Source: a virus
IMG/VR virus record: IMGVR_UViG_3300025112_000037
Location: 1 to 44,024 of that record
Direction: 5' to 3' (one strand)
DNA length: 44,024 nucleotides
A model generated the notes under the pieces. The model was not told the DNA's origin, did not search any database, and was given only the letters and a program-made list of their open reading frames with translations. Numbering within the stretch: the first letter of the stretch is position 1; every line of letters starts with the position of its first letter. Both the position numbers and the translations under genes were made by a program. Shown piece by piece: positions 5,140-30,600 of the stretch.

Positions 5140-6678
5140 CTACATAGTAAGCCAGTCAAGTAGTTTATTGCGTTTTTCTTCAAGTTCTTCTTTAGGGTCA
5201 AATTCATCCTTTTTTATCCTACATGGCCTCGATCCTTCCAAAGCAGTCCAAATAGCATCCATTATATCATCATTCTTACCTTTTGGATAAGATAAGAACT
5301 CTTGTTGAGCAGTTAAATCTTGTGGTCTAAAGTGAAACTCACCCTTAGCAAGGGATGGAACCAAGGATAAGAGTCTTTCACTCTTCCTATTCCTAGGCTT
5401 CACACCCTTCTCTAGACCGGGTATATATAAATTCTTTTCTAACATGAGTGCTCTTGTCGCACTTCTTAACGCTTCTTGGTATGCAACAGTTTCAATCTTC
5501 ATTCTTTTTGGATGGTATCTCTCAAAAATATCAATAATCTTCTGAGGTTGTTTCGCAGGATCGAGTCTTTCCCTAAAAATGTCGACAATGTACTTATTAT
5601 TATCAGCATCAATAGCAACGGTAGCAATAACGAAATAGTCAGCACGGGCACTAAGACTAGATGCAGGATCAACTCCCGTATAGAGTTCAACGGGTATAAT
5701 TTTCTTCTCATCACTTATACTCCTCACCAAACATGATTGGTTATTTATCATTTCATAGTCATAATGATGAAGTTTTATATAGTCTGGCTTAAATGGAGCG
5801 TCATCTGGAGATTGAGCAATATTCATGTATTCTTGATAGAATCCATTTATATTACCCACACTCTCGAATTCACTCTTTATCTGAAGAATCCTCTTCTTAG
5901 GGAACCTCTCAGGCCAGATACTCTTCTCATCATCATCCCAGATGCTATACCATAGAACATTCCAAGCAGGGCTATCCTTAGCCCAATATAAGAAACAATC
6001 CTCAGAAATAACAGTACCAATCATAACAATTCTCCCTTCATCAGAAAGAGAAGGTATTACGGCTTCTGTCATCCACTTCCTATTCTTTGTCCGAGCTTCA
6101 GCGGTAAGTGCATTCAATTCAGATTCGAAATCGTCTACAATAATAACATTAGGTCTCGTATCACCTTCGATGAAACCACGAACCCTTTGACCAGTACCCA
6201 CAGCAATTACACGAGCACCGTTCTTTAATATAATGTCAGAACCTGTCCATCTTCTAGCAGTGCTAGAACCAAAATCACCAAATATATCGATAAAATTATC
6301 ACTATGTTCCAAATGATACTTAATACGACTCAGGAAGTTTATGGACTGAGCCTGTGATTCTGATATTATTACAATAAATAAATCTTCTTCTGGCTTCTTA
6401 TAAGCCACTTTATACATAGGATAGATGAGACTACATACAGTGCTCTTAGCTGTTCCTCTTGGTGCAGCGATCAAAACACGACTCATCTCAGAATTCCTTA
6501 GATTTTTATATATATCACGATGAAAGGGTGGTGTATCCTTAGCAAGTGCTTTTGGAAAGCAATATTTACCAAACCATCCCATATCTCGCTGAAATTCTTT
6601 CTTCTCCTTAGCGAGAGCATAGACTGCTTCGTAATCAGTGCTTGGACTTTGAAGCCCGTTTTGGCTTATAGCTTCCAC
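5140..6678 (-). CDS. terL: Terminase large subunit
   Basis: This 512-residue DNA-packaging ATPase/nuclease has all motifs visible. Walker A is AAPRGTAKST (71-80). Walker B is VIIVDDFE (178-185), with the catalytic acidic residue at its end. The coupling motif III is IGT (220-222). The C-terminal RNase H-like nuclease has TGVDPASS (334-341) and the late acidic motif NDDIMDA (469-475). The protein cuts concatemers and drives DNA into the prohead through the portal encoded next door. Length and domain order are normal for the family and I see no frameshift. Confidence 0.95.
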   Translation of the reverse strand: MEAISQNGLQSPSTDYEAVYALAKEKKEFQRDMGWFGKYCFPKALAKDTPPFHRDIYKNLRNSEMSRVLIAAPRGTAKSTVCSLIYPMYKVAYKKPEEDLFIVIISESQAQSINFLSRIKYHLEHSDNFIDIFGDFGSSTARRWTGSDIILKNGARVIAVGTGQRVRGFIEGDTRPNVIIVDDFESELNALTAEARTKNRKWMTEAVIPSLSDEGRIVMIGTVISEDCFLYWAKDSPAWNVLWYSIWDDDEKSIWPERFPKKRILQIKSEFESVGNINGFYQEYMNIAQSPDDAPFKPDYIKLHHYDYEMINNQSCLVRSISDEKKIIPVELYTGVDPASSLSARADYFVIATVAIDADNNKYIVDIFRERLDPAKQPQKIIDIFERYHPKRMKIETVAYQEALRSATRALMLEKNLYIPGLEKGVKPRNRKSERLLSLVPSLAKGEFHFRPQDLTAQQEFLSYPKGKNDDIMDAIWTALEGSRPCRIKKDEFDPKEELEEKRNKLLDWLTM

Positions 6679-13731: not shown

Positions 13732-13941
13732 ATGGCTAATGTCACAGTAGTTTCATATCACAACGGTGGTATGCCCAGAGAAATGGAAGGAAATACTCCA
13801 GCTGAATTAGCTAGGATTATGGATATTTCATTAACTGGGGTAAAAGTGTATGTCGATGATGATGAGGTTAAAACCTCAAAACACCTAGCTGACGATGATA
13901 TTGTATCATTTCAGCGAAGTAAAGTATCCTCTGGATGCTAA
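13732..13941 (+). CDS. Ubiquitin-like (ThiS/MoaD-type beta-grasp) protein
   Basis: This 69-residue protein follows one of the best ribosome-binding sites in the window (AAGGAGG). The order of elements fits the small beta-grasp fold: strand VTVVSYH, strand around MPREMEG, helix TPAELARIMD (22-31), strand GVKVYVDDDEV, then LADDDIVSFQRSKVSSGC. The acidic L.DDD-V turn before the last strand and the Gly near the end are typical of ThiS/MoaD and bacterial Ubls. It ends Gly68-Cys69 rather than Gly-Gly, so C-terminal trimming to Gly68 or direct use of the Cys is possible. E2-like, JAMM and E1-like genes follow immediately, which strongly supports a conjugation or sulfur-carrier role. The target is unknown. 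Confidence 0.8.
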   Translation: MANVTVVSYHNGGMPREMEGNTPAELARIMDISLTGVKVYVDDDEVKTSKHLADDDIVSFQRSKVSSGC

Positions 13942-13953
13942 TCGTCTGAGACA

Positions 13954-14000
13954 GCAGTAAGCTGGTGGAGTACTATTTATAGTATAAAGCCAGCTTCTGC
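13954..14000 (+). promoter_or_regulatory. Strong hairpin between the Ubl and E2-like genes
   Basis: GCAG (13954-13957) and AAGCTGG (13959-13965) pair with CCAGCTT (13990-13996) and CTGC (13997-14000) with one bulged base. TACTAT/ATAGTA forms an inner stem. No U-run follows. The hairpin could protect the Ubl mRNA end or reduce readthrough, giving more Ubl than enzyme. Confidence 0.65.
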
Positions 14001-14047
14001 CACTTTAAGTGAATTTAATAACTTAAATAATAATAGGAGATAGAGTA

Positions 14048-15856
14048 ATGACAAAAGTATACAATGCATTACCAAAAGCCTTATCACCTGTTGTAGACAT
14101 AAATGATATGCCAATTGAGCATACTTCTGTGGGATACAAAGAAAGAATTCTTAAATTAATTAATAAAATGTTTAAAATAGATGAACAGACTGAAATCTAT
14201 GAAAATTTAGACAAATATTATGATATGATTTGGAACAAGATTAAAGACCCTAATAAAAAATATGGCGTTGTTGCCATAGATGGGTACAAAAATGATCCAG
14301 AGGGAAATGATGATAGAGCTTTAGTATTTTATATGGGAATACCCAAACTAAGAGGTCGTAGAATAACATACCTTGAAAAGGTATACATGAAGTTGACATA
14401 TTCTTATGGTCAACATCCTATGATATCTTATTTCAATTCAGTTATAGAAAAAGGTGATAAGCCTTCTTTCAATTTTCGCCAAGCAGTAGAATGTTGGCAT
14501 CCACATATCTCGGGACATAATCCTTGTACAGGTGCATTTGGCCCTGATTATGTGAAATTGTGGCGACTGGGCAACTTCTTAATGTTTCTTATGACTTGTA
14601 ACCAATTCTTAAATACTTGGAATGGTAGATCAGCATACTGGAATATTAATAGGCGTCAAATAAAGACAGAACTTGGCAATGAAGAGATTACTATTGGTAG
14701 AATCAAAAATCTGAAAAATAGAGTCTTACGAAGAGATATACCAGAAGAAGTCTGTATAGAGTTTATTAGAAGTTGGCTTCCTTTAATAAAATATGAAAAT
14801 ATTGAAGATGCTATAAATTTCTTAGTACAAATAAAGTCTGAGATGATATTAGCTGAAGAGTTGATATTTAATAGAGACAACATAAGAAATAATGGACTCT
14901 CTATATCTAATGAAATAGCTGAAGCATGTCTTGAAGCTGGTGCTAATATAAATAGTGATCATCATAAATCATGGACTATTAGTGGAAATCATAGATTCAG
15001 AAATAATATGAACCATATTATTCTTGAAATTAATAATGATGGAGAGTTTGAACAGAATAATTACTCATTTAGTTTTCAAAGAGTTCTGACTCATTTTGAT
15101 GATACTGGACAAAGTTGGACTAATTATACAAAGATGAAAGGAATCTTAGCATGTATGTCAGAAACTATAAATGCTGCTTGGTTTTCTACATCTGATATTA
15201 GTTCTTATAGAACTTTGATAAGAGAGGATGATATAGTTCCTTGGTTTATTAAACTTTGGGGTAAGTATTATCATTTTCATGATGTAGCATTACAAAATTT
15301 CTGTGATAACTATACTGAATCAAATATTAAAAGATTAGTTCACAGAGCTCAACCTTATAGTGGTACTATTACTGCTAAAAGTTTAAAAGAACCAATTGAA
15401 AGAAAACTACATAACAGAAGATTAAGAGTAAGACGATGTTTAAGAACAAGATACCAAAGAATATTAAATAAAATAGATTTTAATAATGCTATGAATGATC
15501 TTGTGCAAGAACATTTTCATTATGAACTAATGGATGAAGAAGTTTATCTAAGTACTGTAGATAATGTTACAGATAGAATACCAGTAATAGATAAGGGTCT
15601 CTTTTGGAGAGATATTGGTGCAACATATGATAGTAAACGTATAAATAATGTTATCAATCTATTTGTAGACCAACGTGTTCCTAAAGATATGAAAGAACTA
15701 GTGGTAGCATATCATAAGTTAAAAGAAAAATTGCTACATATTGAACGTGAATGCTTAGCATTCCATTACAGAATGAACCTAAGGAGGTTAGAGAAAAATG
15801 TGCAAACTAATAATACCGAAGAAAATACACAACAAATACCTCTATTTTTTGACTAA
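14048..15856 (+). CDS. E2-like (UBC-fold) protein with large C-terminal extension
   Basis: This 602-residue protein sits between a Ubl and JAMM plus E1 genes. Residues 151-160 read HPHISGHNPC, followed by TG and then LWRLGNFLMFLMTCNQFLNT, WNGRSAYW (about 171-198). This matches the E2 signature: the HPN-type flap motif (here HPH), a catalytic Cys nine residues further on (Cys160), and the L...LL..N...spl helix that follows it. Preceding residues 72-150 are strand-rich as expected of a UBC sheet. The remaining 400 residues are helical, with a basic segment around 440-470 (KLHNRRLRVRRCLRTRYQR), and match no family I know. They may choose the target or act as a ligase-like module. The C terminus overlaps the JAMM gene by 59 bases. 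The E2 assignment is motif-based. Confidence 0.6.
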   Translation: MTKVYNALPKALSPVVDINDMPIEHTSVGYKERILKLINKMFKIDEQTEIYENLDKYYDMIWNKIKDPNKKYGVVAIDGYKNDPEGNDDRALVFYMGIPKLRGRRITYLEKVYMKLTYSYGQHPMISYFNSVIEKGDKPSFNFRQAVECWHPHISGHNPCTGAFGPDYVKLWRLGNFLMFLMTCNQFLNTWNGRSAYWNINRRQIKTELGNEEITIGRIKNLKNRVLRRDIPEEVCIEFIRSWLPLIKYENIEDAINFLVQIKSEMILAEELIFNRDNIRNNGLSISNEIAEACLEAGANINSDHHKSWTISGNHRFRNNMNHIILEINNDGEFEQNNYSFSFQRVLTHFDDTGQSWTNYTKMKGILACMSETINAAWFSTSDISSYRTLIREDDIVPWFIKLWGKYYHFHDVALQNFCDNYTESNIKRLVHRAQPYSGTITAKSLKEPIERKLHNRRLRVRRCLRTRYQRILNKIDFNNAMNDLVQEHFHYELMDEEVYLSTVDNVTDRIPVIDKGLFWRDIGATYDSKRINNVINLFVDQRVPKDMKELVVAYHKLKEKLLHIERECLAFHYRMNLRRLEKNVQTNNTEENTQQIPLFFD

Positions 15857-16619
15857 GTTCAAGAAATTAGAGTGGTCTGGCCCTGCTTGGTACAAGGTTA
15901 AGACTGATGAAGATGGATATCCTAAAGAGTGGAAAATAATACATTTCCATCCTTTGAATTTAGGTAGTGCTGCATCAACTGAGTTTGAATCAGATGATAT
16001 GGCTAAAATTCTAAAGAAAACATTCACGGAGTGTCCAGCTACTAAAAAAGCTAATATTGGACTAATTCATAGCCATAATACTATGGGAGCTTTCTTATCT
16101 AGTACAGATCAAAGTACTATAGAAGATATGGCACCAAATGAAGGATTCTATGGTAGTTTAGTAGTGGCAAGTTCAGGTAAAGCTACTGAAGCTTTTGGAT
16201 TTGGATATAAAGATCAATATAAAGCTTCTCATTGTGTTCTAATAGATGAGAGTGATATAGATATCCAAAATAATATCAAAATTCTAGAAGAATGGGAATT
16301 GATAGCAAAAGAGATTGAGAATAATAAAGTTCCAGTATCTACTCAAATTAAAACATATGCAGGTACTCAAGTTTACAATGGTCAGAATAATTGGATTAAT
16401 CAACATCAATCTAATCATAATCAGACAAGACTGTTTCAAGATAGTAAAGTTACCAGTGTACAACAACAAAAGATAGATACTATTGTTGAATTACACTTTC
16501 AAGGTAAGTTAACTGATATTGATGCAGAAAATAAATTATGTAAACTTGGTATTGATGCGTTAACTGCAATGAAGTTATTATATCCTTATGATCCCTATCA
16601 AACTGGTTATCTTGTATGA
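15798..16619 (+). CDS. JAB/JAMM (MPN+) metalloprotease, deubiquitinase-like
   Basis: This 273-residue protein has a complete JAMM metal site: Glu25 (LEWSG), His91 and His93 (IHSH), and Ser101 and Asp104 in HSHNTMGAFLSSTD, which is exactly H-x-H-x7-S-x2-D. Such enzymes cleave after the terminal Gly of ubiquitin-like proteins, either to mature the Ubl or to remove it from targets. The enzymatic domain fills about residues 1-155. The C-terminal 110 residues are Gln/Asn-rich and then helical (FQGKLTDIDAENKLCKLGI), possibly a targeting region. The start codon lies inside the E2-like gene behind a very strong RBS (AAGGAGG), which fixes it. Its stop overlaps the E1 start (ATGA). Confidence 0.88.
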   Translation: MCKLIIPKKIHNKYLYFLTKFKKLEWSGPAWYKVKTDEDGYPKEWKIIHFHPLNLGSAASTEFESDDMAKILKKTFTECPATKKANIGLIHSHNTMGAFLSSTDQSTIEDMAPNEGFYGSLVVASSGKATEAFGFGYKDQYKASHCVLIDESDIDIQNNIKILEEWELIAKEIENNKVPVSTQIKTYAGTQVYNGQNNWINQHQSNHNQTRLFQDSKVTSVQQQKIDTIVELHFQGKLTDIDAENKLCKLGIDALTAMKLLYPYDPYQTGYLV

Positions 16620-17284
16620 CCAATCAAAATAGGTTTCTAAGAAATAAGGATTTAATCCCACAGAAAAAACTAGATCAAATTGGTTTAGTTGGATTAGGAG
16701 GTATCGGTTCACAGCTGGTACCTCTGTTGTCCATTATGGGTTTTAGGAAAATAATAGGTTATGATCATGATACTCTTGAAGAGCATAATTTATCAACCAC
16801 ATTATATCCTCAAGCCTTTAGTGGTAGATATAAGTCTACTGCTGCGAATGCTATAGGATACTCATATATGGATGATACACAGAGTATTGACTGTAAAGAT
16901 GAACTCTATGATGAAGATAGTCCTACGTTCCCTAAAATGATTGTTTGTTTAGACAATATGGAGGGTAGATTAATTGCCTATAATAAATGGTTAGAACAAC
17001 CTAATAGGCAGTTCTTTATAGATTTGCGTATGGGTGCTATGGCTATGGAAATTGTAACAGCTACTAAGAAATTTGATAAGTATCTTGATAGTTGGTTACC
17101 TACAAATGAGATAGCAGAAGAGCCTTGTACAATGAAGCATACTATCTTTACTGCAGCTATAGTTGGAGGTTTTGGTGTTGACCAAGTCTTTAATGTAGTT
17201 GCAAAAAGACCTTATTACTTGTACATTTGGATAGGCTTAATGCCATTAAAAATGCGAACTGAACAGTTAATAATTAATACATAG
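16616..17284 (+). CDS. ThiF/E1-like adenylyltransferase
   Basis: This 222-residue enzyme of the E1/ThiF/MoeB family should adenylate the Ubl C terminus and may then hold it as a thioester. The nucleotide loop GLGGIGS (26-32) and the Asp at the end of the next strand (IIGYD, Asp50) are clear. The DxxEHNLS segment (52-60) carries the conserved Glu/Asn, Lys73 lies in RYKSTAA, and the second acidic residue is CLDN (Asp113). Cys171 in EEPCTMKHT corresponds to the catalytic cysteine position. The zinc CxxC pairs of ThiF/MoeB are absent and the protein is shorter than housekeeping enzymes, as seen in bacterial conjugation cassettes. It is coupled to the JAMM gene by ATGA. Confidence 0.88.
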   Translation: MTNQNRFLRNKDLIPQKKLDQIGLVGLGGIGSQLVPLLSIMGFRKIIGYDHDTLEEHNLSTTLYPQAFSGRYKSTAANAIGYSYMDDTQSIDCKDELYDEDSPTFPKMIVCLDNMEGRLIAYNKWLEQPNRQFFIDLRMGAMAMEIVTATKKFDKYLDSWLPTNEIAEEPCTMKHTIFTAAIVGGFGVDQVFNVVAKRPYYLYIWIGLMPLKMRTEQLIINT

Positions 17285-17292
17285 GATGGTAT

Positions 17293-18159
17293 ATGGATAT
17301 TAAAGTTAGGAAAATATCTACTGATTGGAAAGTGTTGCCCAATGGGTTGACTTGGTATTTTATCGGTCAACCCAAAACGGGTAAATCAACACAAGCTAGT
17401 CAATGGAGTAAAAATGGAGCAGACGGATGTCTCTTAATAGATACAGACTTAGGCTCAGATTTTGTTGATAAAGCAAATACAGTTACAGTAACATGCCTAA
17501 ATACACCTACTAGACCTCAAATGTTTGAAGGAAAACAAATTGTTGAAAAGGGAACCCCTTTGACAGAAGTTATTCCTAATGACGAAAGAGATCATTATCA
17601 CAGAACTGGTGATAGTGTAGGTGAACCAATGGAAGTATATTCCATGGTAGAGGTATATTACTGGCTTAAGGAAAACTTGAAAAAGCTTCCTTATGATACA
17701 ATTGCTATTGATACTCTTGATCACATAAATAGATGGATAGAAGACGAAGTATGTGATGAAAGAGGTCAAGTAGCAATGGGTGATGCAAGCTCATGGGGAC
17801 AAGACTGGGCACAAGCTAGAAAGAAAAATCTTGATATAATCAGGAAATTTCAACGGCTGTGCAAATCTTTAAATAAGAATCTTGTTCTAGTAAGTCATGC
17901 AAAACCAACATCAGTCACAGACGGCAAGAGTCAGCTGGGGCCACAACTGCCGGGAGGTCTGGCAATTGGAGTAACTGCTTCAGCAGATGTAATTGGATAC
18001 ACTACCGCAAGTAAAGAAGATGGAAAGTTCTATATTTCTTTCCAATCTTATGATGAAAGAGCTGTGGGCAGCAGATTGAAACCGCTTGCCCAAAAAGTTC
18101 TTGATTTCGATTACGATAGTGTAATGAACGAAATCCTTAAATTCAAAGAAAAGGAGTAG
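17293..18159 (+). CDS. Sak4-like RecA-fold ATPase (phage single-strand annealing/recombination)
   Basis: This 288-residue P-loop protein has Walker A GQPKTGKST (25-33) and Walker B TIAIDTLD (136-143), followed by a RecA-like core ending around LVLVSHAKP and ADVIGYTT. This pattern and length fit the AAA_24/Sak4 group, RecA-core proteins of phages that work with an SSB in annealing and recombination-dependent replication. The next gene is SSB-like, as often found for Sak4. It starts nine bases after the E1 gene, so the conjugation and replication genes share a transcript. Confidence 0.75.
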   Translation: MDIKVRKISTDWKVLPNGLTWYFIGQPKTGKSTQASQWSKNGADGCLLIDTDLGSDFVDKANTVTVTCLNTPTRPQMFEGKQIVEKGTPLTEVIPNDERDHYHRTGDSVGEPMEVYSMVEVYYWLKENLKKLPYDTIAIDTLDHINRWIEDEVCDERGQVAMGDASSWGQDWAQARKKNLDIIRKFQRLCKSLNKNLVLVSHAKPTSVTDGKSQLGPQLPGGLAIGVTASADVIGYTTASKEDGKFYISFQSYDERAVGSRLKPLAQKVLDFDYDSVMNEILKFKEKE

Positions 18160-18162
18160 CGT

Positions 18163-18798
18163 ATGCCGTATAGAGGTTCTTACGAAGCTAAAAGAACAAA
18201 TTCAGGTAAAAGCCCTTGGTTAGGATTCCAAGATGTTGCTTTAACTGATTTTGTTAATAAATCAGATCAATATGAAAATCTGGATGTGTACATAGAGGTA
18301 CATTTCAGGAATGAGAATAGTCAATTTCCTACTAAATATAATTTATTGGGAAGTTTTGATTATGAATCAGATGGGACTATTTCTGGTGATAGTAGCTTGT
18401 TAAAAAAGATACTCTACTTAACAGATGCTCTCGGATGGGACGGTGGTATAAATACCAAAGGAGAATGGGTTGATGGTGATGATAATGTCTTAGAAGACGA
18501 TGTCGCACTAACATTAAATGCTCATTTTACACAAGCCAATTATGGAATAGACAACCATGATACACCTTATTATATTTTTGTTTACAGCAAATGGGATGAT
18601 AAGGCAAAAAGAGCTTACCCAACCGTATGCCCTAAGGTAGTTAAAAATGACGAAAAAGGTCGGACTGATCTTGAAAGTTATATTAACTTCATGAAGGCTA
18701 AAAAGTATATTGTTGAGCACGACGCAAATGAGAAAGTTGTTAATAGTGTATCACCTAGAAGTACCACTGCTTCTGGTGGAACACAAACTTCTTTTTAG
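18163..18798 (+). CDS. Probable single-stranded-DNA-binding-like protein
   Basis: This 211-residue protein is encoded between the Sak4-like ATPase and the primase-helicase. The first 170 residues are strand-rich with many aromatic residues (YIEVHFRN, YNLLGSFDYES, YYIFVYSKWDD), consistent with an OB-like single-strand-binding fold. The C terminus is a flexible Ser/Thr/Gly tail ending in Phe (GGTQTSF), reminiscent of SSB tips. No named family motif was found, so the call rests on composition and on its typical pairing with Sak4. The stop overlaps the next start by one base (TAGTG). Confidence 0.45.
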   Translation: MPYRGSYEAKRTNSGKSPWLGFQDVALTDFVNKSDQYENLDVYIEVHFRNENSQFPTKYNLLGSFDYESDGTISGDSSLLKKILYLTDALGWDGGINTKGEWVDGDDNVLEDDVALTLNAHFTQANYGIDNHDTPYYIFVYSKWDDKAKRAYPTVCPKVVKNDEKGRTDLESYINFMKAKKYIVEHDANEKVVNSVSPRSTTASGGTQTSF

Positions 18799-20627
18799 TG
18801 TCATTCTTTAACGAAGTAGCAATAGGGAGCCCTCGTAATAGAGGGCTTCTTATTCCTGAAGAACAAGTTATAGATGTTATTATTGAACATGGTGAGAATA
18901 ATGCTGTATATAAAAGCTTATATCTATATGATGAAGAGGCCAAAGAATATTTTAAGATAAGAAAAACTCTTAAAGATTTTATTGGTAAAAGATACATAAA
19001 AAATGTATTAATTGATATAGATAAAGGACAAGATTCAGATCAACATACACTAAATAAAACAAAAGGTGTATTATTTGAATTAGAAGAGCTGAATGTATCC
19101 CCAGAATCTTATCAAGTTTTCTTTAGTGGTACTGGATATCATATAATGATAAGTGGGGAAGTATTTAATTTTCCGTCAGGAAATAAAGACTTACCATTTA
19201 TTGTTAAAGAAACTATGAACAATTTATTCAGTGAAATAGATTTAGCAGTCTATAACAGAACTTCGATCTACAGGTGCAGAGACACTCTAAACCAAAAATC
19301 ATCTCTATATAAAATTCCACTTTCATATTCTGAAATACAAAATCTATCATTTGAAGATATACATAGAATGGCTGCGAGTCGTAGACATTATTTTGTTGAA
19401 AATATCTGGGGTGATGGAGAATTAGAAGATAAGATCGCTATGACTGTTCCAAAGATTAGAACAATGGAATCAAGCGTAGAACCTAAGAATATTGTACCAT
19501 GCGTACAGAAGATGTATTCACTTGGCCCAGAAAAGGGATCAAGAAATAATACTATGATGCGAATAGCATCCCATTTCTTCAGACATGGTATACCAAGTGT
19601 TGCAACAAAAGCATCACTTCTTGAATGGAATAATAATCAACTAAGGGAAGATTTAGTTTTAAAGAAGGTAGAAGATACTTATCGTGGTGGATACAAATAT
19701 GGTTGTCAAGATGAACTAATGATGAAATATTGTAAACCAAATTGTATTTACTATAAAAGAAAAGACTATCTTGTAGACATAAAGAATAGTGAAGATTTAC
19801 AATCGGACTTAGCTGCAAGGCTAGAAACCGATTTTACGGGCAGAACTATAGACCTAGCTAGGCAGTTAGGCGTATATATGACAGATGCGACTATATACCC
19901 CGGTGAATTAGTCACTATATTCGGTTCGACAGGGGCTAACAAAACAGCGTTAGCACAAAACATAGTGTTAGGATATAATGCAAACCTCGACATAATAGAG
20001 AGTGAGCTGCAAATTCCAACACTGTTCTTATCATTAGAACTATCTGGATTTGTAATGCATCGAAGAAATTTACAAATTGTATCAGGTGGGAGTAAAGACA
20101 ATGTAATTAAAAACTATAAAGAACTTTATCAGCATCATAAAGATGACTTAAGTCATATAGCAATTCAGTCTATTAGTCCTAGTGTACAACAGGTACAAGA
20201 AAAGATAAGAAAATTTCAACCTAAATGTGTAGTCGTGGACTATATAGATTTAATTGATGTTCCCTACAATGTAAGAGGAGAATATGAGAAATTAAATTAT
20301 ATTAGTCATTCATTTTCCAATATGGCTGTGAACGAAGATATAATAATTATCCAAATTTCACAGGTAAGCAGAGAATATTCCAGAAGTCAAACTATGGATT
20401 TGTATGCTGCAAAAGGAAGTGGAGCAATTGAAAATGCATCTAGAAAAGTACTTGGAATCACTGGTAAGTCAGATGACCCAGAGAAAAAGGTATCTTTATT
20501 TAAGAACAGTGATGGTGATCTATTTGATGTAGAACTCGAATGGCAACCATCATTCAGATTAAAAAAGAAGAATATCTTCAATGGTGGTAATGGTAAATTC
20601 CAAATGGTAGATGAAAGAGGAGTATAA
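18798..20627 (+). CDS. AEP-type primase fused to DnaB/RecA-type helicase
   Basis: This 609-residue replication protein starts with GTG overlapping the upstream stop. The N-terminal half has archaeo-eukaryotic primase motifs: the acidic LIDIDKG (71-77), SGTGYH (110-115, the SxH-like motif) and LAVYNRTSIYRCRDT (149-163). A cysteine cluster Cys303, Cys312, Cys316 follows in the PriCT-like linker, possibly a metal or Fe-S site. The C-terminal half has Walker A GSTGANKT (376-383), FLSLE (410-414) and Walker B VVVDYIDLI (478-486) with QISQVSRE downstream, the arrangement of DnaB-family helicases. One polypeptide could therefore unwind and prime. The Lys precedes Thr as required, though the loop is unusual (GANKT). 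Confidence 0.85.
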   Translation: MSFFNEVAIGSPRNRGLLIPEEQVIDVIIEHGENNAVYKSLYLYDEEAKEYFKIRKTLKDFIGKRYIKNVLIDIDKGQDSDQHTLNKTKGVLFELEELNVSPESYQVFFSGTGYHIMISGEVFNFPSGNKDLPFIVKETMNNLFSEIDLAVYNRTSIYRCRDTLNQKSSLYKIPLSYSEIQNLSFEDIHRMAASRRHYFVENIWGDGELEDKIAMTVPKIRTMESSVEPKNIVPCVQKMYSLGPEKGSRNNTMMRIASHFFRHGIPSVATKASLLEWNNNQLREDLVLKKVEDTYRGGYKYGCQDELMMKYCKPNCIYYKRKDYLVDIKNSEDLQSDLAARLETDFTGRTIDLARQLGVYMTDATIYPGELVTIFGSTGANKTALAQNIVLGYNANLDIIESELQIPTLFLSLELSGFVMHRRNLQIVSGGSKDNVIKNYKELYQHHKDDLSHIAIQSISPSVQQVQEKIRKFQPKCVVVDYIDLIDVPYNVRGEYEKLNYISHSFSNMAVNEDIIIIQISQVSREYSRSQTMDLYAAKGSGAIENASRKVLGITGKSDDPEKKVSLFKNSDGDLFDVELEWQPSFRLKKKNIFNGGNGKFQMVDERGV

Positions 20628-23258: not shown

Positions 23259-24635
23259 TTATCTCATATATCTTCCAATTCTTGTTAACTTTATCAAACC
23301 TTTTGTGCCAAGCCTAAGAGCTTTCTCCATAGCTTTTTCCCATTTACCAGCTTTTATAGCAGTTTTTAATTGTTCTCTAGTACTAATTCTTGCTACATCT
23401 CGTGAGGTAACAACATTAAAGTGAACCTTTCTTTGAAAGGGATCATTATTAGTAAGCACATCATACTTATCTGATATTAAAATATCAGTTTTTATATTCT
23501 TACTTGGTATACCGCCTTTTATATGTTGTCTAAAAACACGACCCTTTGATTTTCTCAAATTAACACTGGCATTAACTCCGCCAACAAGATAATGTGGTTT
23601 ATATTGTGGGGATAAAACAATATTTGCTATCCCAGTATTTTTATTATATTTAAAAGATTGCATAAATTTTCTAACTTCTAAATCTAAATCATCTATATGT
23701 TCATGAAGAACATTAGCTGAAGCAACTCTAAATCCCTTTATACTTCTTTTTTGCATACTATAAATTCTTTCCCTAGCATATTTCTCAATACTTTTAGGAT
23801 CATCTAAATCTGCATACTTCATGACATATTCACCCATTTGATATTGAGCATCTCTTTTTACTGACTTAACAATAGCTTTCTTATCACCGCCTACGTCAAG
23901 AATTTTTGAAATTGATATTTTAGAATCAGGATGCAATGTTCTTCCATGTTGTGTTAAAACTCTTGAATGATCAGAAAGTCCTTCACCAGTACCAAATGCA
24001 GTTTTCATATCTGTTAATATAGGCTCACTTAATCCATTAGCTCTTAACCTATCTACATTAACTTTACCAGTTTCTGTCCAATCTATCATTTCTTGTGCAA
24101 GTTTTTCATGTCTATGAGCTCTTTTTAGAGTTGTATATTTATAACCGCCAGAATCACGACCTCTTATATTTGCTGTTCTTTCATGCTTCTCAACATCTAA
24201 TCTAGCCCTATGTTCAGCAAAAGTTTTCTCACCATACTTATTCATTTCATCTTGGATAATCTGTCTTTGCATCTTTGGATATTCATTTTTTAGCATAGGA
24301 GCATGGCGTTTAACTATTTTTTGTATCTCATCCTTCTCATTGTTCATCATATGCTGAGCCATTAATTTTTGCTTATCTCTTTTTGTCCTACCCTTATCAT
24401 AAAAAGTTTCTACTACTGTACTCATTTTACCAGCTCTTTTACCTATAGCAGTTCCAGCACCACTATATTTTAACCCTTGATATCCTAAGGCACTAATTCC
24501 CCACCCAGCACCACCTACGGTAGCTGCCTTAGCCAATACTTCTTTAGTTCTTCTGTAATTATCATCATTCTCTTCATTCAGTTCACGAATAGGTATCTGA
24601 TTCTTTCTTAATATATAATCTAATTCATTTTTCAT
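23259..24635 (-). CDS. 458-residue virion/ejection-type protein, last late gene
   Basis: The gene overlaps the giant protein gene by four bases (ATGA) and ends the leftward unit. A Gly/Ala-rich amphipathic segment (about 37-66, AATVGGAGWGISALGYQGLKYSG) is followed by long charged helices and a basic C terminus ending RIGRYMR. The composition resembles internal virion proteins ejected with the DNA in podoviruses. No enzymatic motif was recognised. Confidence 0.6.
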   Translation of the reverse strand: MKNELDYILRKNQIPIRELNEENDDNYRRTKEVLAKAATVGGAGWGISALGYQGLKYSGAGTAIGKRAGKMSTVVETFYDKGRTKRDKQKLMAQHMMNNEKDEIQKIVKRHAPMLKNEYPKMQRQIIQDEMNKYGEKTFAEHRARLDVEKHERTANIRGRDSGGYKYTTLKRAHRHEKLAQEMIDWTETGKVNVDRLRANGLSEPILTDMKTAFGTGEGLSDHSRVLTQHGRTLHPDSKISISKILDVGGDKKAIVKSVKRDAQYQMGEYVMKYADLDDPKSIEKYARERIYSMQKRSIKGFRVASANVLHEHIDDLDLEVRKFMQSFKYNKNTGIANIVLSPQYKPHYLVGGVNASVNLRKSKGRVFRQHIKGGIPSKNIKTDILISDKYDVLTNNDPFQRKVHFNVVTSRDVARISTREQLKTAIKAGKWEKAMEKALRLGTKGLIKLTRIGRYMR

Positions 24636-27600
24636 GATGGTGCATTCCCAACTAAGCTTAAAAATCCTTTAGGCTTTATTATTTCTTTTTCTTTTTGATA
24701 TTCTCTAGCAAATTGCATATAGGGTAAGCCAGTTATCTTTTCTACTGACCTCATTGGATTGTCTATTAGTCCACCTTCTCCAAATACATCCCATCCCATT
24801 CTTCCAAAAGGAAACATACTAGCAACATAATATCCAGCTAATCTATCATAATCCCCTGTTACCATACCTTTAAATAAAGGTGGAAGCAGCCTTGCAATAG
24901 GAGGGGTAATCACTTGTAAAGGAGCCAACGCAGTAGGATAAGTTCCAAAAAACGCCCTACTTTTCTCTTTCTCATTTCCAAAAGCCCAGTCAGCTAAATC
25001 TTGGAGCCAGTTCCAAGGAGCAGGTAGAGCATTTTCGAATAGTGAATACATAAATACAGAGGATAAGCCCAGCATCATCATATCTAGAGTAGCCAACCTC
25101 TTGAATCTTTCAAACTCTTCTGTACCCTCTTTCCAGCCTCTTAAGGCTGCTTCACTTATAACTTGATTTCTAAATCTTACAGAATTCCATGACCAGAGCT
25201 GGAATCTTGTCATAACCTTACCCATGGTAGACCTAGCAAAAGCTGGTCTAAATGGAGCTGAATATAAGAACTGGGTAGACTTGACACCTTCCTTAGCTAA
25301 TTTAATAAGGACAGGGTCATCAAATCTTGTTATAGCACCCTCAAAGTTATTCCTAGCTTGCAGATAATGGGCCATAAAGGCATCTCTACGGAGAGTTCTC
25401 TCTGGTCTTCGCATGAACCATGCAGCTTTATTAAAGATTGTATCTGCGATACCATGTTTCTTAGCAATAGACCTTAGTTCTACGTCTTCTAATTTAGGGT
25501 CTTTTCTAATCTTACCAGAGGCTTCAGCAAAAAACTCTTGCCATTTCTTACCTTTAAATTTTGGATTTAACCCAGCCTCATAAATAAGAAAGTCTTCTAC
25601 TACACCTAATTTATACACCCAGTCCTGAACATCAGTTAAGTTCTTCCACTCTGGATTAACATTTGATTGTAGATATCTAACATTACGACCATTTAGGTAA
25701 TTTTCCATACCAGTAGAGGCTAACGTGTGCACAGTACCACCATAAAGATTGGCTACAGCACTCTTTGGATGAGCGAGTAATGATGCAAGTTGATATTTAG
25801 CTTCTAAATTACCCCATTTTGCCAATACACCAAAATCAATACCCTTTAATTCTTCAGGAAGGCCAGCTTCTTTTTCAGCTCCAATGCCAAGCTTCTTACG
25901 AATATCATTTACTCTTCGTTTAACATTACTATCATTCCACCAAGCATATGGAGTACCTTTTATTTTCATACTATCATTATTAAGGACACGATCAGGTATT
26001 TTTTGTGGATAACCAAGGGCATCTTGAGCATATAGATTAAAGAAATCAACCCAATCAAATGTATGTGCCCAATCACCAGTCTTCTTATGATGTTCTCCTG
26101 CAAATCTATATATATCTGATCTCACCTTGATTTGTGCAGCATGCTTATGCATATTATCAATAACACCCTTCATATAATTAGAATATACCTCAGGCTCTAT
26201 ACTCCATCCGGGTATATGTGCATTACGAGAATGTTGAGAACCTACTTTTCTTATACTGGTAAACCAAGATACACCCTCACCTTTCTTTTGCTGCTTAGTA
26301 TTTATCTCTCTCAGTACATTAAAAGCTTGTTCATATGGCTCATTGATTTCACTATTTGGCATCCAATCACCAGTTACCTGTTTATAATGATATATAGCCT
26401 TTGTTAGCTCTTTTAATTTTGTTCTCTTATCCATGAATGGATCAGCTTCAAGAGTTTTTATCAAATCTTTTATACCATTTGCAGCAAGTTTCCTATCACC
26501 AGCAACATGAGGCCAATATCCTTCAGGGCCCAGATCACCAGTTTCTTCTATTTCTAATTTTAAGTTTATATTTTCTTTTATAGCCGAGTGTCTCTTAGGG
26601 GTTTCAGCAATCATTTGACTTTTTGCAATCTCTCTAAGCCCATCAATGCCTTCAGATAAGTCAACTCTCTCACCCTTTACTACAGCTTCGTTGAATTTCT
26701 TCAAAAACTTTTCAACAATGTGATAATCACCAGCATAATTTTTATACTTACCTCTTAATGAGCTATATGATCTTTGCCATTCATTCTGACCAAACATATC
26801 CCTTTCTCCAGTCATCCATCCATGAACTCTTTTATTCCATTTAGTAATTATATTATTAATATTTGTCACTATTTGATTACCAGTTAACTTGATTACTCTC
26901 CCACCTTCAACTGGTACATCATATATCTTATCTTTTAAAGCTTCCCAACCATATTCTTTTTGAATTTCGTTCCATTTATTAATATACTCCTTTGAAAAAG
27001 CATTAAAGGTAGCTGTATCAGCTTTATATCTTTTTCTAAATTCTGGAGAAGTCGCATATTTAAACTCTCTAAGTCTTACAGCAACTCTAAATAATTCAGC
27101 TCCATCAGGAATACCCTCAAGATATGGTCGCATATCAGCATCAAATAAATCTTTTTCTTGTTCATACATCTGGGTAGACTGCTGCTGCATAGTGTGCACA
27201 GCACCTTGCATCTTTGTCATCATATTATCAGGCTGGACTACTCTGCCATGAACCCAACCATACTTATCTTTATATGGAGCACGAGCTTCGACTAACTTTA
27301 AATCAAACCTCATCAAATCTTGTCCAATAGCCTTCGGAAACATAAGATGATGCCAAGGGCTTATTTTTGCAGACTTATCTTTCACTGGTCTCATCATCTT
27401 CTGCCACCAACTACCATCTCTAGTTTGAGAAAACCATCTATCTAAAGTCTTAAAATCTTCTAATGACGCCTGATTTATATCTTTTTTGATAAGCCATCTC
27501 ATAACACCATTTAAATCTTTTCCAACTATATTATTATAATGCTCTAGATGATCTTTTATTCTATAAGCTAACTCACTAGCCTCTTTTGATAACTCCCCCT

Positions 27601-30600
27601 TATGTAGTCCTATAAATGGAGCATACTCATCGAAGTATAACTGCGTTTCAGCGTCCTTCTCTGGATTTTCTACTACCATTCCTTCAATTCTATTGCCATC
27701 AGAATCAAAAAATGGTTTAGGTCTGTCTAATTCCTCTGCACTCTTTACAAGAATTTCAGCAGTTTTAACGTCTGGAATATCAATAGTATAATCAAATAAC
27801 TTAGAGTATTCCTTTAACATATTACGAACAGAGGCATCAGATATTGCCGAAGATGCAAATCCTATCCTAGAAAGAGAAGTCTTCTTTGAATCACCTATCA
27901 TATTCTCTATATCTTTAGCAACTCTCTCAGTTCTAGGAGGGCCATGCTCTTTAAAAAAAGCTTTCTTATCAAACTTTCTTCCACGCCATAAGGTACCAAG
28001 CATAAAAGCATCAAATAAATCAGCTTCTTCAGGTGTAATAAGTTCTTTGTACTGCTCTATTCTCTTATCGATTTGCATCTGATTCAAAGCTGCAGACTGC
28101 TTATCACCATATATCTTATCATGAGCAGCCTCTAAAAATGATACCTCATACTGGTCAAGCGATGAATTCTCTTTATCTATCTTCTTAGCTTTATTGGCAA
28201 GTATATAACTATTCTTTTTCAAGAAATCTGCTTGTTCAGCAATCTCTTTTATCCTAGAATTAGAAATATTCTTTGCTTTCTTTACTATATATTTTATACT
28301 AGCCATATCAGATAAGTCATTAATAATAAAGTCTTCTGCCTTTTTAACAATATCAGTTAAATGTCTAGTACGCTGCTCTATATTATCTGGATCAAACTTA
28401 TCAAATTTATTTTTATTATAATATTTAAATTTATCCCCACCTAAAATATCCCTTTTGTATCTTGGATGCTGCTTATCTAATTGAGATTCCATACCTTCTT
28501 TTGTATAAAGCTTATACTTCATAGCTAATTTATAATATGCACTCATAGGAACAGCCATAGTTTCACGACCAAGAGCATCTCTCAACCAATCATAAGCTTT
28601 TAAACTACCCTGATGTTCTTCATATAATCTATCTAAGTTTGTTTCTTTTAATCTTTGAAGAACACCATCACTCCAATCAAGACCCTGTATATCAGTTGCT
28701 AACTTAGGGAGAAATGTATTTCTTTGTTCTGGAGCTAATCCTTTTTCAGGATCATTTATCCCTTCTAGTCTCTCATGGATTTCCCACATATGAAATCTTC
28801 TATTCTCAGCAAAATTCCTACTATATAATCCTTGATTAATATCTTTCATTAAATTTATTACAGCACTTCTTTTATGATGAGGTTTAATTAGTCTGTCATA
28901 TTTATGAACTGGCTTACCAAAATTAGGATTCTGTTTATTACCTACCATATGCCTATTATCTATAATTTTATATTCAAATAGAGCATCAGTCTGCTTTTCT
29001 AACAGCTCTTCACCACGCTTACCAAATTTTAATCCAGCTTCATCCATAGGGTCTGATGCTAATCCAACAGCAGCCCTAGTTAATCCTCTGAATGCCCTCA
29101 AACTAGTATCACCCTTTTTAGCTCTTACCCTCAATGTTAAATCTTCTGTAAAGTCTTTCACTTTTATCTTCACGAAAACAGTAGAATCTTCAGCAGCTCT
29201 TATTGCAGCATAAGCTGATCTTATAGTCCCAGACTGAACAACAGCAACTTTTAATTGTCCCCTACCCTCAGAAGCTGCATTAGATGCAGTCTGTCTGGAC
29301 ACAGGATCATATTGCAATGCTTTATTCTTCCCAAGATCATAAACAATATCTTCTCCAGTTGCCTTATCAGGCTGAACTGTTAATTCTGAATGATAAGTCT
29401 TACCCGTAAATGGGTTTATAGCTCGCTTATTATCTGCCTCTATAGGCTTACCATCTGCAGATTCTACTACATACTCATTCTTAGACCAGTCATACGCATC
29501 TTTCCAATCTTTCTTAAAACCTTCTCCAGTACCATCAGTAGCTCTACCACCAAAGAACACAAAAGCTTTATCCCCATCTAGATCAGCACCTCCAAGAGCC
29601 TTCATAGTTCTCCCATGAAGTAATGATCCATATCCACGAATTCCTGTAAATCCTTTAAAATGAAGAGCGTGAGCACCACTCATAGAATCCATAGGTACAC
29701 GAACAAGAACAGCCCTAAACAATTCTTCTAGTTGCTTATCTCTCTTAGCACCCTTTATCTTCACATACTTCTTAGCCTTTTCATCCCATTTCTTTAAAGA
29801 TACTTGGTAATCATCCCATAATTTTCCAAGTTTACGTTTACGTTTCTTACCTATACCAGTAACATCAACATCTAATTCTCTAAATCCCTCATCTAAGAAA
29901 AATATATCATCTCTCTTTTCCAAATCAGCAGTAATCCCTTCCTTAGACATACCTATCTCATAAGGTCTCATCCTAGTAGAACCACTATTGCCTATTTTGG
30001 GTCTCGTTATACCATTAACAATATAGTTTCTTATTACTGACATCCTATAATCACGACTGTATTTATGCAAAAATCCAGCTATACTTCTTGGGATAAGCTT
30101 CTGTATCCTATCATGAACAATGACATAATTAGCCATTTCATCTTTCATGCTCTTCAATTCTGTATCAGTATATTCACCATCAGCACGCATATCTTCAATG
30201 ATATCTCGATTATATTTCTGTATCTTAGCATAAACTTGATTAGCAAATAACTCATTACCCGGCTTCTTTATAGCACCGAGTAGTTCATGTACACCAACCT
30301 TATCTAAATTATTTAGAATTTTTGGGATATCATCCTCATAAGCAGTTGGATTCTCAGCTAATTTTTTTACTATAGTATTATACTCTTCTTCACCTGCAGC
30401 ACGACTCCCGCTAAGAGTTTGATACATATCATCCATAATCTTACCCATAGCTTCATTATATTGATTTGCATTCTTAAAAGGAGCACGACTAGGGTCGAAG
30501 AAAGAATATGGAGTAAAATTCATAAACATCTGTTTTGGCATATGCTGAGATTCAATACTATGCTTATCTGTCTTTTCAGACATTACTATTTTTATATCTC

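Follow-up and report, generated by a model that had tools for sequence, protein, structure and literature searches.

Bacterial cassettes for conjugating ubiquitin-like proteins (Ubls) have been discussed mainly as anti-phage defenses. Bil operons encode an E1, an E2, a JAB peptidase, and an ISG15-like Ubl; BilA carries two Ubl domains and BilD two adenylation domains, and in BilB a C/E/H/H motif starts at the Cys (PMC11354881). PRTRC or type 6d operons of mobile elements (Iyer et al. 2006) place adjacent genes for a small Ubl with a C-terminal Gly, an E2-like protein, a JAB, and an E1 together, with an E2 that lacks a His before its Cys and with an additional helical protein (PMC1779556). Phages lambda and T1 encode a Ubl and a JAB among their tail assembly genes (TAPI–TAPK), without an E1 or E2 (PMC1779556). 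Here, we analyze an IMG/VR virus record (IMGVR_UViG_3300025112_000037; 44,024 bases, taken whole and called the window below) in which a complete set of such parts appears on the phage side, at positions 13732–17284.

The cassette consists of four open reading frames (ORFs), all on the + strand and at the positions given in a preliminary description made from the DNA letters. As that description claimed, they are adjacent and coupled: the 602-residue frame and the JAB frame share 59 nucleotides, the JAB and E1 frames share ATGA, and strong purine-rich Shine-Dalgarno sequences precede the Ubl, E2-like, and JAB frames. We consider it probable that the cassette is a self-contained, reversible phage Ubl-conjugation system that acts near the replication fork. 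Its features are as follows.

13732–13941, + strand: Ubl, a 69-residue β-grasp modifier precursor (AlphaFold; Foldseek; Pfam ThiS in relatives)
13954–14000, + strand: stable RNA hairpin in the gap that separates the Ubl and E2-like frames (z -4.4 in the window)
14048–15856, + strand: E2-like protein, 602 residues (invariant His and Cys; AlphaFold element order)
15798–16619, + strand: JAB/JAMM metallopeptidase, 273 residues (Prok-JAB 8e-4; invariant catalytic residues)
16616–17284, + strand: E1-like adenylating enzyme, 222 residues, single ThiF domain (ThiF PF00899, 9.7e-11)

The linkage proposed in the preliminary description extends to relatives. Scanning 2.9 million viral contigs with a profile of the E1 yielded 254 relatives, 80 of which were kept, and a second scan with a crAss-type E1 yielded 89, with 79 loci kept. 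Clustering of the E1 proteins at 90% gave 36 clusters in the window's own branch, for which we use the label marine-type irrespective of sample origins, and 77 crAss-type clusters. Of these, 28 marine-type and 71 crAss-type clusters yielded the full set of four genes, in every case in the order Ubl, E2-like, JAB, E1 (28/28 and 71/71). Among clusters with at least 5.2 kb of upstream sequence, the set was complete in 13/13 marine-type and 64/64 crAss-type cases. Because both scans start from the E1, we also anchored a scan on the Ubl; the E2-like, JAB, and E1 genes followed it in all 39 loci with enough room. The overlap of the E2-like and JAB frames recurs in 28/28 marine-type and 68/71 crAss-type clusters, with a median of 68 nucleotides when starts are chosen mechanically. 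In annotated phages, the crAss-type E1, JAB, and E2-like proteins were detected in 74, 71, and 74 records, respectively, from the same organisms. About a hundred diverse phages carry the kit in this one gene order, and in them it has been overlooked.

As far as we tested it, a bacterial origin of the cassette was rejected. A scan of genome collections returned two relatives, L098 and L099, the latter a short contig and the former a crAss-like phage fragment with the same synteny inside a Clostridium metagenome-assembled genome. In 398 genomes of that phylum, the sole full-length match to the crAss-type E1 was the contig already found (2.8e-110), the others being partial matches at the ThiF level (~1e-16 to 1e-19), and a plasmid search gave no match to the lineage. 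As far as these scans reach, the E1 lineage seems to be restricted to phages.

The JAB and E1 are bona fide members of their families. The preliminary description had credited the JAMM protein with all of its metal-binding and catalytic residues, and this is borne out: the motif HSHx7SxxD, with a Glu in an upstream EWSG, completes the JAMM/MPN+ signature (E, HxH, and S-x2-D), and E25, H91, S92, H93, S101, and D104 are invariant across 28 rows. The Pfam Prok-JAB match (8e-4) lies below the curated cut-off of that family. A role in Ubl processing and deconjugation is predicted. The E1, described beforehand as a ThiF-like enzyme with GLGGIGS, two Asp, and a PCTMK cysteine, contains each of these features (GLGGIGS corresponding to GxGGxG). 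R9, G26, G28, G29, G31, D50, D52, K73, and D113 are invariant in 28 relatives, as expected of a ThiF-type Rossmann domain with the ATP-site residues of the E1 superfamily. C171-TMKH is likewise invariant in 28 rows, and Cys171 is the predicted thioester-forming residue. In MoeB, "NL" is followed by Arg-Gln; the window E1 lacks this pair and reads NLSTT. Profile searches with the E1 matched the SUMO E1 UBA2 (3.5e-9), the NEDD8 E1 (8.8e-8), MccB (2.8e-7), and ThiF (1.8e-6); UBA3, UBA5, MoeB, and PaaA are among the proteins matched.

The Ubl is a β-grasp protein according to its structural model, the outcome on which the preliminary description had staked its reading of the cassette. AlphaFold modeled it with a mean pLDDT of 85.4 in the order strand-strand-helix-strand-strand-strand (strands 2–8 and 16–20, helix 23–29, strands 37–41, 44–46, and 56–62), and Foldseek against the Protein Data Bank (PDB) placed it with other ubiquitin-like modifiers, including SUMO2 (3.4e-4), TtuB (TM-score 0.74), an Mth1743/Urm-type protein, and the ubiquitin of Caldiarchaeum in complex with the Rpn11-like JAMM of that organism. 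Scans of Pfam, PHROG, NCBIfam, and PADLOC returned nothing specific for the window Ubl; among its relatives, 4/27 matched Pfam ThiS (best 4.6e-4), and TGS was also matched. The protein ends in FQRSKVSSG-C. The conserved C-terminal Gly of Ubl modifiers has its counterpart in S67-G68, which is invariant in 27 rows and followed by 0–10 variable residues, and the Ubl of L071 terminates exactly at SG. Processing to a mature end at Gly68 is predicted. Immediately downstream, hairpins of different sequence occupy the same place in L008, L016, L057, L064, and L075 (z -4.1 to -5.8), and the hairpin is weak or absent in L023 (z -2.5) and L027 (z 0.3). It may serve as 3′-end protection or as an attenuator that favors the Ubl over the enzymes, giving a high Ubl-to-enzyme ratio.

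In the 602-residue protein we confirmed the motif HPHISGHNPC. H151, P152, H153, C160, G162, and S195 are invariant in 32 rows, most of which are 14–27% identical to the window protein, so that the His and Cys persist while the remainder diverges. As in E2 enzymes, in which the catalytic Cys lies ~10 residues after an HPN-like motif, C160 follows HPH151–153. The AlphaFold model (pLDDT 83.5, pTM 0.75) orders a helix (54–65), four strands (74–78, 91–95, 113–117, and 125–131), HPH151–153, C160, and two helices (164–173 and 177–188), an order that, as modeled, is compatible with an E2. The catalytic part is predicted to span approximately residues 54–190 (nucleotides 14207–14617) with H151-P-H153 and C160; the C-terminal ~400 residues are helical. 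Full-length Foldseek matches in the PDB were dominated by helical proteins, profiles of the core matched nothing in the PDB, and Pfam, PHROG, NCBIfam, and PADLOC scans returned nothing specific. A search for Prok-E2_B homologs gave a single sub-threshold match in the 398 genomes. A tblastn search of 50,697 phage records with the protein gave no match; its link to known phages came solely by way of E1/JAB synteny.

A homologous set is present in cultured crAss-like and other phages: gp79-gp78-gp77-gp76 in crAss001 and other Steigviridae, adjoining primase and UDG, and gp53–gp50 in Flavobacterium phage FpV4, with further examples in bajarodcaudo virus 1, Dulem virus 41, DAC15/17, and Flavobacterium phages Fpv. 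Gene order and the replication/recombination neighborhood are common to these sets and the window, at 28–35% identity for the E1 and ~30% for the JAB (crAss001 and FpV4). The E2-like/JAB overlap measures ~62 nucleotides in crAss001 and 125 in FpV4. The crAss-type E2-like motif is HSH...C-x-G, with HSH where the window has HPH, and the E1 motif is C[ST][YM]KQT; downstream of the crAss-type E1 lie gp75 and UDG instead of the window's Sak4. The two E2-like families align around H-x-H...C-x-G and the next helix (hhalign E 1.5e-4, probability 52%), and the E2-like AlphaFold model retrieves crAss-like proteins from a library of viral structures (BFVD). The Ubl of the window is unfused, whereas the crAss-type Ubl usually continues after SG into a tail of ~100–200 residues; gp79, for instance, has an N-terminal Ubl-like domain ending in K[IV]xSG and then the tail. 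Free crAss-type Ubls occur in L144 (cr106_1; also L095), L207, and L211, with the ends SGKF, SGEVV, and SGNKN. Fused and free Ubls that share SG are what proteolytic release by the adjoining JAMM would predict. Since the two Ubl branches align only weakly with each other (hhalign E 0.019), it is their synteny and their SG end that speak for common descent.

In cr106_1 (L095, 2405–3608), the Ubl frame is separated by an HNH endonuclease gene from the tail that relatives have fused. In L146, L167, L173, and L190, the JAB match stops after ~107–117 codons and the E1 starts ~2–3 kb later, which suggests an intron or homing-gene insertion in the JAB.

All four cassette genes are under purifying selection, with ratios of nonsynonymous to synonymous substitution (dN/dS) of 0.08–0.37 among close relatives; together with the open frames, this rules out a decaying cassette of pseudogenes. 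Within the E2-like protein, the C-terminal part (dN/dS 0.33–0.41) evolves faster than the catalytic part (0.21–0.27) and is the least constrained part of the cassette, as would be expected of a part that faces substrates. This part ends in a short motif encoded within the overlap.

15833–15850, + strand: QIPLFF tail, E2-like residues 596–601 (QxxLxF-like; dual-coding with the JAB start)

In the window's branch, E2-like tails read QxxLxF or QxxLF (the window has QIPLFF, other loci QTDLF, QAELF, and QSELF), and conservation of Q596 and L599 is 90% or higher. Tails of this form resemble the clamp-binding peptides of bacteria. The motif was found in 21/24 E2-like proteins against 10.2 expected from synonymous resampling with the JAB protein held constant, a count uncorrected for kinship; as a mere by-product of the JAB frame, the origin first suspected, the motif would be expected in about 10. 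In L075, L081, L138, and L143, the motif sits in a different JAB register. Since the count ignores kinship and crAss-type E2-like proteins mostly lack the motif, we treat a clamp-binding tail as a lead only. Many crAss-type C-termini (e.g., L009, L180, and L186) instead end in a hydrophobic [VI]xY[IL] (QTVCYI, VRYL, KVKYI), possibly a docking peptide that differs from the QxxLxF form of the marine-type proteins.

From the folds, residues, linkage, and selection described above, we infer the following conjugation chemistry. The JAMM would trim the residue or tail after Ser-Gly and expose Gly68. The ThiF-type E1, judging from its fold and invariant residues, would adenylate this Gly and hold the Ubl as a thioester on Cys171. 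The Ubl would then move to Cys160 of the E2-like protein, where the HPH histidines would play the role of the E2 HPN. As the operon hints, the E2-like protein might tag phage or host proteins at the replication fork or close to it, by way of its large C-terminal part, which evolves fast, and perhaps of a clamp-binding tail. Removal of the Ubl by the JAMM would make the modification reversible. A more specific and rather doubtful version of this scheme is a phage-exclusive Ubl pathway in which the QxxLxF/QxxLF peptide rests on the host sliding clamp while fork proteins are tagged. Were it true, the targets would be the clamp, the polymerase, or phage annealing factors, and the pathway would be a viral counterpart of PCNA modification by SUMO and ubiquitin.

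Several observations weigh against a conjugation system. There is no E3 among the cassette parts, and the operon context tells little about substrates. For the 602-residue family, profile searches found no E2 or ubiquitin-conjugating (UBC) match in Pfam or in PDB sequences, and no UBC fold stood among the 50 Foldseek PDB matches listed for the full-length, mostly helical model. The E2-like partner of the preliminary description therefore holds in its motif, in the invariance of HPH...C, and in an E2-compatible element order, but not in any E2 match from full-length Foldseek or profiles. Because no search returned a UBC fold, "E2" here names a proposed function and is the weakest link of the cassette. 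The same absence would fit a 602-residue protein that is a substrate or scaffold, to which the E1 attaches the Ubl directly and from which the JAMM removes it, making it a Ubl-switched replication accessory factor; the large, mostly helical, fast-evolving body and the overlap of its frame with the JAB would suit such a role. We regard this as unlikely, given that H-x-H and C are invariant in both branches at very low identity and that the modeled elements follow an E2-like order.

ThiF, Ubl, and JAB proteins also occur together in sulfur-carrier pathways, and CysO–Mec is a precedent for a Ubl and a JAB working in this way. The Ubl could thus be a thiocarboxylate carrier like ThiS, CysO, or TtuB, with the JAB cleaving a Ubl adduct and the 602-residue protein acting as a sulfurtransferase or acceptor enzyme that, for example, thiolates a nucleotide or cofactor. 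The minimal ThiF-type E1 speaks for this reading, as do the Ubl's matches to ThiS/Urm-type proteins and its TM-score, which is highest for TtuB. We nevertheless judge it improbable: rhodanese (PF00581) and class-V cysteine desulfurase (PF00266) were absent from 11 phage records in which controls were detected, and the lack of a phage-encoded sulfur donor counts against a carrier, even if the host could supply sulfur. The Ubl ends in SG, whereas sulfur carriers usually end in GG, and a dedicated fourth protein is present in every case, from a family that bears an E2-type HPH...C and matched no enzyme. Hosts use Ubl systems against phages (CBASS, PMC10097602), and the cassette might compete with or sabotage such immunity (CBASS Cap2/Cap3 or Bil), for example through a decoy Ubl or modification of host sensors; the E2-like protein, as the part that diverges fastest, would fit. 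Whole phage groups keep the cassette, deeply conserved, at one place in their replication module, which is unusual for anti-defense genes, and sequence kinship to Cap2 and Bil is limited to the ThiF core, which leaves counter-defense with a small share of our belief. Matches of the E1 profile to MccB and PaaA raise the thought that the E1 adenylates a ribosomal peptide or the Ubl to form a small toxic conjugate matured by the JAB. This is highly improbable, as the Ubl is modeled as a folded β-grasp domain and not a short peptide, and the E1 has an invariant extra Cys and stronger matches to eukaryotic E1 enzymes.

In the window, replication genes lie on the + strand, and capsid, portal, terminase, and tail-fiber genes lie on the - strand. 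The cassette adjoins the former, in agreement with its earlier placement in an early or replication region, and a gene for a Gam-like protein also lies downstream, together with the following.

17293–18159, + strand: Sak4-like annealing/RecA-type ATPase (PHROG 124, 1.7e-26), usually directly 3′ of the E1
18163–20627, + strand: 211-residue protein and primase/DnaB-type helicase (PHROG 19, 1.7e-29; PriCT_1; DnaB_C)

The Sak4 gene follows the E1 in most marine-type loci and is absent from loci of the L061/L064/L085 type, where the cassette is kept. The 211-residue protein and primase/helicase module was retained in all 16 marine-type loci compared, and primase, helicase, Sak4, or UDG genes neighbor the cassette across relatives. 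Elsewhere in the window, the large terminase subunit (5140–6678, - strand) is at most ~28% identical to the best matches listed from the 50,697 phage records; by this measure of sequence, the group to which the phage belongs has no close cultured members among them. A 2903-residue protein (24632–33343, - strand) without a useful Pfam or PHROG match contains ALGGADLDGDKAFVFF at residue ~1254, which is similar to DxDGD, the motif that binds metal in RNA polymerases of the crAss/YonO type, and is possibly a giant virion RNA polymerase.

Marine-type phages and crAss-like phages, including the culturable crAss001, have the set at a fixed place in the replication module. If a protein is conjugated, this would be a viral Ubl system that brings every part itself, and one in which genetics could show what phages tag and why. 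It also offers a concrete function for human-gut phage genes annotated as "thiamine biosynthesis". Published annotations of the set read ThiF/thiamine biosynthesis, metalloprotease, or hypothetical. In the literature searched, which was thin on subscription papers, no description of the set as a Ubl system was found. The preliminary claim that it seemed undescribed is therefore only partly right: within that literature it survives as to the system, and it fails as to the genes, which sit mis-annotated in cultured crAss001, DAC15/17, and Fpv, so novelty of the set among known phages is not supported.

The Bil, PRTRC, and CBASS systems, with which the cassette had been compared at the outset, indeed share its parts list; membership in any of them is not supported, as their defining features are missing. 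The list of Ubl, E2, JAB, and E1 is common to Bil (BilA–D) and the window, but the window has a single-domain, 69-residue Ubl, a single-domain, 222-residue E1, and HPH before the Cys instead of a two-Ubl BilA and a BilD with two adenylation domains, and the PADLOC BilD model scored 17.7 bits against its E1 over the ThiF core alone. Against PRTRC, the ThiF model TIGR03736 gave 17.9 bits for a cut-off of 144.75, and the other PRTRC models matched none of the window proteins. Type II CBASS Cap2/Cap3 and the related 6A-MBL have an E1, a JAMM, and, as predicted for the cassette, E2-type chemistry in common with it; Cap2 is an E1–E2 fusion, whereas the window has separate E1 and E2-like frames and a free Ubl, and Cap2/6A-MBL models match its E1 over the ThiF core alone (10–25 bits). 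Among Bub proteins (BubABCD), BubCD was matched weakly by the E1 profile in the ThiF core (E 9e-4), and the window E1, as a separate 222-residue protein, departs from Bub. Compared with the tail-associated Ubl and JAB of lambda and T1, the window set sits with replication genes and has all four parts.

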